Origin: Halothiobacillus diazotrophicus
GTDB taxonomy: Bacteria; Pseudomonadota; Gammaproteobacteria; Halothiobacillales; Halothiobacillaceae
Length of the DNA: 64,000 nt
Direction: 5' to 3'
Assembly: GCF_001663815.1 (NCBI RefSeq)
Contig: NZ_CP016027.1
Location: forward strand, 2,542,501-2,606,500
Position numbers and translations under genes: made by a program. Shown piece after piece: positions 23,880 to 26,682 of this stretch (position 1 is its first letter; every line of letters starts with the position of its first letter). The notes under the pieces were generated by a model, which was not told the DNA's origin, ran no database searches, and saw nothing but the letters and a program-made list of their open reading frames with translations.

Positions 23880-23942
23880 TCGGGCACATTCCATTTCCAG
23901 ATTGAATTCTCTCGACAGAAACTCGCCAGGGAGGCGCCTCGA

Positions 23943-24887
23943 ATGAGCCAAGCAGTCGATCTTTCCACACAACCGGCCGACGACGTTGCCCGAGCCGGGC
24001 AGCCGCACGACATGGGAGGCTTTGTGGCCGGTACCCTGGTGCATACCGAGGACGGACTCAAGCCGATCGAGCAGATCAAGGTGGGCGATCGGGTGCTTTC
24101 GCGGCACGAGTCGGGCGAAGGCGAGCTGTGTTATCAACCGGTGACGCAAACCTTCCAGTACGAAGACCGGGAACTCTATTACGTGTCCTGGCAGGTGCTG
24201 GATAAAGAGACGCTCAAGCCGAAACAAATCCGTGGGGAAATGGCGGTGACCGGTGCCCACCCCATCTGGGTCAGGCGGGTGGTGGAAGAGCGCATGGATG
24301 CGGAGTGCGTTGATCTTGAGGAGACCCCACATGAAATCAACCGCTGGATGAGCATTGAAGAGATTTACCTATGGTATTGGAAGGCCTATTGGGACTTCGA
24401 ATGGAACCGTGGCAAGGGGGGTGGGGCAAACGTCTATGTCGAGCTGGCCGATGGGCCCGCCTTGTTCGGGTACATTCAACCCATCTTGCAAAGCGACGAT
24501 CCCGATGTCGGGGTGGGATTTGATGATGAAATACAATGGCTAAGAAATGCAGATACGGAGGGGTGCCGGGTTGATTTCAGGAGCGAGGAAGGGGTTCCCC
24601 GCAACGGATTGTCCTCGTCGGAATACGGCACCTTAGATAACGATCGTGTCGCAGCTATGTTGATCGATGATTTACAAGAAGCCTACGATCATCCGGATGC
24701 CTTGAATTTTACCAAGCGCTCGGGAGGCTACTTGCCCATGCGCCGGCGGGTGTACAACCTGGAGGTGGCCAATACCCATACCTATTTCGTCGGTGATCTC
24801 GGCTTGTGGGTGCATGACAGCAGCGTCCTTTCTTGTACCCAAATCAGACGATCTCCGCGCATAAACCCTGAACATTTAGATGGCTGA
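23943..24887 (+). CDS. Orphan Hint-domain protein with lost catalytic residues
   Basis: A 314-residue protein built around a Hint (hedgehog/intein) module of the pretoxin type. The opening GGFVAGTLVHTEDG and IEQIKVGDRVLS (25-53), the block-B TGAHPIW (103-109) and the closing NTHTYFVGDLGLWVHD (277-292) are clear. Active members begin with Cys at the position of G26 and end with VHN where this has VHD292. Each is a one-base change, so self-cleavage should be impaired. About 150 residues of unrelated, less GC-rich sequence interrupt the module. Only 25 residues precede it and 22 follow, so neither the toxin N-terminal delivery region nor a toxin warhead is present. GGGAGG precedes the start. Probably a remnant of a polymorphic toxin system. 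Confidence 0.78.
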   Translation: MSQAVDLSTQPADDVARAGQPHDMGGFVAGTLVHTEDGLKPIEQIKVGDRVLSRHESGEGELCYQPVTQTFQYEDRELYYVSWQVLDKETLKPKQIRGEMAVTGAHPIWVRRVVEERMDAECVDLEETPHEINRWMSIEEIYLWYWKAYWDFEWNRGKGGGANVYVELADGPALFGYIQPILQSDDPDVGVGFDDEIQWLRNADTEGCRVDFRSEEGVPRNGLSSSEYGTLDNDRVAAMLIDDLQEAYDHPDALNFTKRSGGYLPMRRRVYNLEVANTHTYFVGDLGLWVHDSSVLSCTQIRRSPRINPEHLDG

Positions 24888-24997
24888 CCCGCTGATGGGC
24901 CGATTCATACGGCAAACGGCAGGCGGTCGCGACGTTACCCCGAATTTGAGTAGCACAGGCATTTAGAGTCCAATCCCATGAATCAAGGAGATTGGAT

Positions 24998-25060
24998 GTG
25001 GAGAAACGCTACAGCGAAGAACAGATCATTTGGTTATTGAAGGAGGCGGACACCGGTGTC
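24998..25060 (+). pseudogene. IS3-family transposase OrfA remnant
   Basis: Starting at GTG 24998, the reading VEKRYSEEQIIWLLKEADTG matches the N-terminus of IS3-family OrfA (helix-turn-helix) proteins. After about 21 codons the similarity stops and the frame runs into unrelated sequence. The upstream segment, including an AAGGAGATTGG site, also looks like an IS3 left end. No OrfB or right end is present, so only a small fragment remains. Confidence 0.65.
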
Positions 25061-25092
25061 CCGATCATTGATCATCGCTTGTACGGAAGCAT

Positions 25093-26379
25093 TCACTCTA
25101 GTTCACCGTTCTTGTTGAGCCGAAAAATCCAGGCGTCGCCGAAGCCCGCGCCCTTGGACGAGGTATAACCGGCCACGGTGAAGCCGCCGTCGACGTTCTG
25201 CACGACGGCAGAGGCCCAATCCACCTTGCGGCCGCCGAAGGTGCGATCCCATCGCAGCTTCCCTTGAGCATCCAGGCGGATGACCCAGGCGTCGCCCTTG
25301 CCCGCGCCCTTGGACTGGGTGCTGCCGGCCACGGCGAAGCCGCCGTCGGCGGTGCGCACGATGGTAGTGGCCCAATCCTCCTTGCGGCCGCCGAGGGTGC
25401 GATCCCACAGCGCCCGGCCTTGCGCATTCAGGCGGATGACCCAGACGTCGGATGAGCCCGCGCCTTTGGAGTGGGTCTCGCCGGCCACGGCGAAGCCGCC
25501 GTCGGCGGTCTGGACCATGGCGCCGGCCCAATCATTTTCGCTGCCGCCGAAGGTGCGATCCCAGAGCACGTGACCTTGAGCATCCAGACGGATGACCCAG
25601 ATGTCGGCCTTGCCCGCGCCTTTGGACTGGGTATCGCCGGCGACGGCGAAGCCGCCATCGGCGGTCCGCACGAGGGCGGTTGCCTCGTCCTCCTCGCTGC
25701 CGCCGAAGGTGCGGTCCCAGAGCACCTGGCCGTGAGCATCCAGGCGGATGACCCAGGCGTCCCCCTTGCCCGCGCCTTTGGACCGGGTGCCGCCGGCCAC
25801 GGCGAGGCCGCCGTCCGCGGTCTGCACGACGGCAGAGGCCCAATCGTCCTTGCGGCCGCCGAGGGTGCGATCCCAGAGCACCTCGCCTCGGGCATCCAGG
25901 CGGACGACCCAGAAGTCGATGTTGCCCGCGCATGTGGCATCGTCCTGGTTCGCGCATGTGGCATCGCCCTGACCCACGCCCTTGGCATCGCCCTGGTCCG
26001 CGTCCTTGGACCCGATATCGCCGGCCACGGCGAAGCCGCCATCGGCGGTCCGCACGATGGCGTTGGCCGCGTCGTCCTCGCTGCCGCCGTAGGTGCGATC
26101 CCACAGCGCCTCACCGTGAGCATCCAGGCGGATCACCCAGGCGTCCACCTTGCCCGCGCCTTTGGAATCGGTGTAGCCGGCCACGGCGAAGCCGCCGTCG
26201 GCGGCCCGCACGATGGCGGTTGCACCGTCATCCTCGCCGCCGCCGAACAGGTGTTTCCAGAGCAAGGCCTCAGCCCTCGGCGGCTCCGCCTTGATCCTCA
26301 ACGGCGGCGGCTGCGCATGGCTCGGCATTGCGACAGACAGGGCGCAGAGAAAGTATGCAACGGTGGCGAGTTTTTTCAT
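25093..26379 (-). CDS. Secreted seven-repeat beta-propeller protein
   Basis: A 428-residue exported protein: an N-terminal signal peptide (MKK...SHAQ, about 23 residues), then seven near-identical repeats of about 52 residues, each built on 'LWDRTFGGSEDDWA..IVRTADGGFAVAG.T.SKGAGK.DAWVIRLDA.G'. Seven units fit a closed seven-bladed propeller. Blade 2 carries an extra 25 or so residues with a GQGDATCANQDDATCAG mini-repeat, which contains the only cysteines of the propeller. The start at 26379 was chosen for the signal peptide. There is no membrane anchor or sorting signal. Function unknown; such repeats occur in surface and periplasmic proteins. Its neighbours are the IS3 remnant and dacB. Confidence 0.82.
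   Translation of the reverse strand: MKKLATVAYFLCALSVAMPSHAQPPPLRIKAEPPRAEALLWKHLFGGGEDDGATAIVRAADGGFAVAGYTDSKGAGKVDAWVIRLDAHGEALWDRTYGGSEDDAANAIVRTADGGFAVAGDIGSKDADQGDAKGVGQGDATCANQDDATCAGNIDFWVVRLDARGEVLWDRTLGGRKDDWASAVVQTADGGLAVAGGTRSKGAGKGDAWVIRLDAHGQVLWDRTFGGSEEDEATALVRTADGGFAVAGDTQSKGAGKADIWVIRLDAQGHVLWDRTFGGSENDWAGAMVQTADGGFAVAGETHSKGAGSSDVWVIRLNAQGRALWDRTLGGRKEDWATTIVRTADGGFAVAGSTQSKGAGKGDAWVIRLDAQGKLRWDRTFGGRKVDWASAVVQNVDGGFTVAGYTSSKGAGFGDAWIFRLNKNGELE
25110..26290 (-). repeat. Tandem repeats of about 156 bp encoding propeller blades
   Basis: The seven blades are also repeated at DNA level with a period of about 156 bases. Blocks such as ACGGCGAAGCCGCCGTCGG and CCCGCGCCTTTGGA recur almost unchanged. 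The DNA identity points to recent expansion or ongoing homogenisation, and makes the copy number liable to vary. Confidence 0.8.
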
Positions 26380-26682
26380 GACGAATGGATCTCGGGTATT
26401 TCGAGCGTGTAGACCTCCGATTGTCACCACCGGATAGGTTATGCGAACAGGGGGGTGATCGTCACCATTCGGCTAGATTTGCTCCAGCTTTGTTTGTGGT
26501 GACGTCGCTCGTAGTCTCCGGGCGACATCAACTCTTTAGAACCGAGACGACGTCGGGATAAATTGGGTCATAGTTTTTGATCATAGGTTATACGGCTTAG
26601 GGGCAATACTCATTCCGAGTACTCGATCATTGTTCGGGTCACTAACCGCTATGCGCGGCCGAACCACTAATCGCCGCAACCA
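26380..26682. other. Intergenic region between propeller gene and dacB
   Basis: About 300 bases with no credible open frame, RNA structure or insertion-sequence match. It is less GC-rich than its surroundings (especially 26540-26660). It presumably contains the promoter of the propeller gene; no confident element could be placed. Confidence 0.4.

Follow-up and report, generated by a model that had tools for sequence, protein, structure and literature searches.

In the window, a 64,000-nucleotide stretch of Halothiobacillus diazotrophicus DNA, we find a stand-alone Hint gene whose product has lost both of the residues that carry out self-cleavage: the first Hint residue, Cys1, is replaced by Gly26, and the terminal Asn by Asp292 (Table 1). 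As judged from sequence comparisons, this gene (hereafter the Hint ORF) probably encodes an intact, non-cleaving solo Hint protein that retains a role. The loss targets the two cleavage residues; the other conserved Hint positions have stayed. The Hint ORF also has the architecture and residues of the solo-Hint class as we define it in this analysis, a class in which purifying selection is shown for the Psychrobacter members. The known uses of Hint domains are self-cutting and self-splicing, and a recurrent, selected, non-cutting class implies a second use of the fold.

Table 1. Features of the Hint ORF and its surroundings (window coordinates).
Feature	Position	Strand	Basis
Stand-alone Hint ORF, 314 aa, ATG start	23943..24887	+	Open frame; PT-HINT; AF2 model; Foldseek
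Shine-Dalgarno GGGAGG, 8 nt before ATG	23929..23934	+	Sequence
25-codon leader before the Hint module, predicted to be disordered (pLDDT about 33), without recognised domain	23943..24017	+	Sequence, model
First Hint residue, GGC (Gly26); TGY (Cys1) in nearest relatives	24018..24020	+	Sequence, alignment
Block B T103-x-x-H106, kept (TGAH)	24249..24260	+	Alignment
Variable insert between blocks B and F (approximate limits); low model confidence; common to nearest relatives	24492..24731	+	Alignment, model
Block F His279, kept (HTYFVG)	24777..24779	+	Alignment
Penultimate His291, kept; GAC (Asp292) in place of terminal Asn	24813..24818	+	Sequence, alignment
22-residue C-terminal tail without toxin domain	24819..24884	+	ORF, Pfam, model
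Lineage-specific block that holds the Hint ORF, the IS remnant and a repeat-protein gene	23880..26682	.	Absent between HD-GYP gene and dacB in L252, L253, L254
IS3-type element remnant, 138 bp	24930..25067	+	95.7% identical to element beside own-genome Hint paralogue at L020

The initial annotation described an open Hint frame with these two substitutions, and it is borne out by the sequence on both counts. PT-HINT is the sole Pfam domain above the cut-off (E 3.3e-13), the NCBIfam model for the intein C-terminal region (TIGR01443) matches residues 270-285, and the codon score of the Hint ORF is higher in its own frame than in any other. An AlphaFold (AF2) model derived from 17 sequences has a pTM of 0.77, and its top Foldseek matches in the PDB are BIL and intein domains; confidence in the model is high for the Hint portions and low for the insert. 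The Hint ORF therefore has the profile and predicted fold of a PT-HINT or A-type BIL domain, together with the block B T-x-x-H and block F His of that family, and it departs from the family at the position-1 Cys/Ser nucleophile and at the C-terminal His-Asn, which here reads His291-Asp292. Also as annotated, Pfam recognises no delivery or toxin domain, and the Hint ORF is flanked by an HD-GYP gene and an IS remnant, so the architecture is not that of a polymorphic toxin.

To judge the two losses we turn to relatives retrieved by a scan of genome contigs, among which eight (L026-L033) match most of the length of the Hint ORF (residues about 17-294) at 39-45% identity. All eight have Cys1, and the terminal Asn is present in every one that is complete at its C-terminus, except L032, which has His; the L031 sequence is cut short by the end of its contig. 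Another three stand-alone Hint ORFs, from the same genome as the Hint ORF, likewise all have Cys1. Because the nearest relatives keep Cys1 and, mostly, Asn, both active residues were most likely lost on the lineage of the Hint ORF. The search for homologues with intact residues was thus successful, and the initial annotation's caveat, that the family might never carry Cys and Asn at these positions, does not hold. Codons GGC and GAC are each one base from a codon for the active residue, as had been stated, and the Gly has plainly been substituted for Cys (MGGF here, MGCF in L026). In a leave-one-out comparison of 44 near-invariant columns, the Hint ORF protein deviates at one, Cys1, and its relatives at zero to three; the column of Asn292 is slightly less conserved, falls below the near-invariant threshold and so lies outside the 44. 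The Hint assignment and the specificity of the losses both go beyond chance. An open frame with a single altered conserved column is not the picture of a pseudogene. Against L026, from Sulfuritalea, dN/dS is 0.24 for the whole comparison and 0.12 when restricted to the first 55 Hint residues, values in which both branches are mixed.

The insert was misjudged in the initial annotation, where about 150 unrelated residues were said to split the module. The Hint core, at 267 aa, is indeed about 120 aa longer than the minimal Hint of the same genome (148 aa), but this segment aligns lengthwise with that of the nearest relatives, and the insert is therefore a family feature. A homing endonuclease was considered for it and rejected: there is no Pfam or structural support, and the insert is common to family members and poorly modelled.

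The Hint ORF was probably acquired horizontally. The upstream HD-GYP gene directly abuts dacB in three same-genus genomes, whereas here a 2.8-kb block separates the two; no sampled congener has a copy of the Hint ORF, and its G+C (0.56) lies below that of its neighbours (0.62-0.69). No short direct repeats were found at the edges of the block. The HD-GYP gene and the empty site in congeners also dispose of an upstream toxin exon, which the annotation had raised and of which none was found. Because no sigma-70-like promoter or terminator-like site was found at the Hint ORF, read-through from the HD-GYP gene is likely. The block also contains, at window positions 25093-26430 on the minus strand, a gene for a repeat protein (GGSEDD...VAGYTDSKG units) with a weak match to the DUF5122 beta-propeller. 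Elsewhere in this genome, a Hint paralogue with Cys1 and Asn is followed by an IS3-type transposase and then by an ORF with a matrixin-like (Peptidase_M10) end (L020, 8877-12662), and another Hint ORF immediately follows a gene for a Y1-type (IS200-like) transposase (L022, 7645-9053).

Such surroundings raise the alternative that the Hint ORF is what recent decay has left of a polymorphic toxin or giant adhesin, its function gone and its frame open by chance and recency. The IS remnant, which begins 43 bp downstream, fits a degrading neighbourhood, as do the transposase genes beside the two paralogues; decay would also agree with the patchy occurrence, the missing delivery and toxin domains, the want of a recognisable sigma-70-like promoter and a terminal branch somewhat longer than that of the sister protein (0.32 versus 0.23). 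Nevertheless, we consider this explanation unlikely. Cys1 alone deviates among the near-invariant columns, and the same double loss recurs elsewhere under purifying selection (see below); general decay is disfavoured because the frame, Shine-Dalgarno sequence (with its ATG) and coding signal are intact and there is no erosion elsewhere. Where the initial annotation proposed a decayed polymorphic-toxin fragment, its view of the origin is supported, in that close kin precede toxin-like regions in giant adhesin-like proteins; decay of the Hint ORF itself is unproven.

The conversion seen in the Hint ORF is not an isolated one. Our fetched loci contain 117 Hint modules, 116 of which could be classified as stand-alone (70) or as part of a larger protein (46). 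Cys1 is missing from 52 of the 70 stand-alone Hints and from 2 of the 46 embedded ones, in a 2x2 comparison that ignores phylogenetic non-independence; one of the latter two (L057) has probably been misassigned to the embedded class, because of an in-frame upstream extension. In the 54 modules without Cys1, the replacement is Gly in 51 and Ser in 3, and the Gly codons vary synonymously (GGA 28, GGT 16, GGC 6, GGG 1); these residue counts are biased, because one pattern in the collection scan admitted Cys or Gly only. Genome searches that did not use this pattern yielded 20 modules without Cys1, and Gly is present in all 20. In solos whose start codon lies only a few residues ahead of the Hint module, this Gly could be the -1 Gly, left in place once Cys was lost. 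The same 54 modules preserve the block F His in 53 cases, the block B His in 51, the penultimate His in 37 and the terminal Asn in only 5; the final position is variable, with D, E, N, Q, G, A, V, T, C, S and M all represented. On the other hand, 15 stand-alone Hints keep both cleavage residues, and solo status therefore does not force their loss.

A quick tree of 112 rows has about 14 changes at Cys1. Six independent pairs can be drawn across supported branches: on average, solo status is concordant with Cys1 loss in 4.7 of the 6 and is never opposite (median p 0.06 in a sign test, which is borderline), and Asn loss accompanies Cys1 loss in 5.5 of the 6 (median p 0.03). Three sister pairs are clean, namely the Hint ORF with L026 (branch support 89), L044 with L036 (100) and L100 with the giant protein L171 (99), and they offer natural inactive and active partners for testing. 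We found no description of a class of solo Hints without Cys1 in the openly licensed literature.

These comparisons also bear on residual activity, that is, C-terminal cleavage through Asp292 that would free the short tail, with the N-terminal chemistry alone lost. Inteins ending in Asp or Gln are recorded as splicing (Amitai 2004, as cited in PMC4031507), and the Hint ORF has kept His291, T103 and H106. Against this stand the drift of the last residue in Hints without Cys1, the penultimate His retained by only 37 of the 54, and the 15 such Hints that stop exactly at the last Hint residue, with nothing left to cleave. We regard residual cleavage as very improbable.

Evidence that such proteins are maintained was derived from Psychrobacter, for which two sets of Gly1 genes (11 and 10 sequences) have median pairwise dN/dS values of 0.236 and 0.165. 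The pooled values are 0.252 and 0.184, with minima of 0.126 and 0.079 in the N-terminal scaffold. From these low ratios we conclude that the products are maintained proteins. The other possibility voiced in the initial annotation, that the Hint fold has been retained for a function without cleavage, is thereby supported for the class, through recurrence and through purifying selection in Psychrobacter; for the Hint ORF itself it is unproven.

Solo Hints sit behind unrelated genes, and in Psychrobacter often in tandem behind rtcR. In this genus, Gly1 Hint genes form arrays of two or three copies (L053, 5101-7963; L046, 5122-7836; L064, L081 and L101), in several genomes directly behind rtcR or a mere rtcR tail, with different inserts in adjacent copies. 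The AlphaFold model of the large Psychrobacter insert is of too low a quality for use (pLDDT 43). Elsewhere, stand-alone Hint genes adjoin RelE/ParE toxin genes, in an Acinetobacter variabilis plasmid (L263, 4266-5699; annotated) and in Sulfuritalea (L026, 5600-6903; identified by eye).

The arrays lend themselves to another explanation: a solo Hint gene might be a donor cassette, a store of Hint sequence that recombination could transfer into full-length proteins, in which case its own product would be irrelevant; orphan mafB-CT or rhs tips have been proposed to serve in this way. The different inserts of the tandem copies agree with this, as does the precedent of Neisseria orphan CT cassettes, in which a truncated BIL comes with a start codon of the cassette's own (PMC4287609). 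However, most solos stop 0-10 residues past the Hint module and therefore have no toxin tip to donate, and low dN/dS with a conserved Gly1 is unexpected of a silent donor. In Psychrobacter, moreover, no recipient of the giant type that we searched for was detected: the region that precedes the Hint in the giant had matches in 0 of 105 Psychrobacter genomes (a search with no positive control within that genus). The same query matched 6 of 149 genomes in Acinetobacter, and in 4 of these the frame is longer than 11,500 aa. Hint matches themselves, some of them embedded Hints, occur in 25 of the same 105 and 28 of the same 149 genomes. We therefore hold a donor cassette to be improbable.

From the pre-Hint search and the gene contexts, the solo Hints do not seem to be linked to a resident giant of the type searched for, which fits, but does not show, an immunity or decoy role. 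In Acinetobacter, the giants L171 (12,717 aa) and L176 (12,872 aa) each contain a Hint that has both Cys1 and Asn, a variable region and a matrixin-like segment (in L171, a Pfam match just under the cut-off). The matrixin-like end of the L020 ORF resembles that of these giants.

The non-cleaving solo Hint that we favour can be described as follows. A module of a type that precedes the toxin region in giant adhesin-like proteins, here probably acquired horizontally, stands as an independent gene that has a start codon and a Shine-Dalgarno sequence and lacks exteins beyond short tails. Cys1 has changed to Gly and Asn to Asp, the remaining conserved positions being retained; the same conversion has been repeated in other lineages, with the Psychrobacter product under purifying selection. 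Gly1 should block the N-S acyl shift, and the missing Asn should block normal C-terminal cyclisation; with both blocked the product would be an intact, folded cytosolic scaffold that presents the variable insert. The last step is the weakest: the protein may act by binding, most plausibly as an immunity- or decoy-like partner of Hint-bearing toxins, whether the strain's own or those of competitors. Taken alone, such an immunity or decoy role is a tentative suggestion. It is equally doubtful, though possible, that silenced stand-alone Hints as a whole form a distinct cytosolic class, evolved repeatedly from toxin or adhesin giants as immunity or decoy factors that display a variable insert, with the Hint ORF as one independent instance. 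Two other identities found no place here: PADLOC returned no match for anti-phage defence, and a phage origin had no match in phage records, only six weak loci in viral contigs.

The closest known systems are the PT-HINT and A-type BIL domains. The Hint ORF belongs to their sequence family, has blocks A, B, F and G and the predicted fold, and carries an insert as in intact relatives. It differs in lacking Cys1, the terminal Asn, an N-terminal delivery part and a C-terminal toxin; in PMC3482391 the Hint peptidase is regarded as serving toxin release. Cys1 and His-Asn are present in the Acinetobacter giants L171 and L176, which extend past the Hint into another region, and solo Hints do neither; the Hint of L171 is 78% identical to the solo L100, insert included. 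Neisseria orphan mafB-CT cassettes have their own start codon, a BIL truncated by loss of its first residues, a toxin part and then mafI (PMC4287609). The Hint ORF is similarly a stand-alone gene that has its own start codon and begins at the Hint; in contrast, solo Hints end at the Hint, and neither a toxin nor an immunity gene was recognised for the Hint ORF by Pfam or among its neighbours. Class 2 and class 3 inteins also have no first nucleophile. Nevertheless, we reject both chemistries, for want of the compensating residues: no block F Cys replaces Cys1 as in class 3 (VYN272LEV, with Asn272), and in place of the class 2 set (Ala1, Ser for the block G His, Cys+1) there are Gly1, His291 and Ser293. 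The top Foldseek match of the Hint ORF is an engineered, splicing-dead BIL2 (C1A-N143A; PDB: 6y75), which is altered at the same two positions: those mutations were made for crystallography, whereas the change in the Hint ORF is natural.
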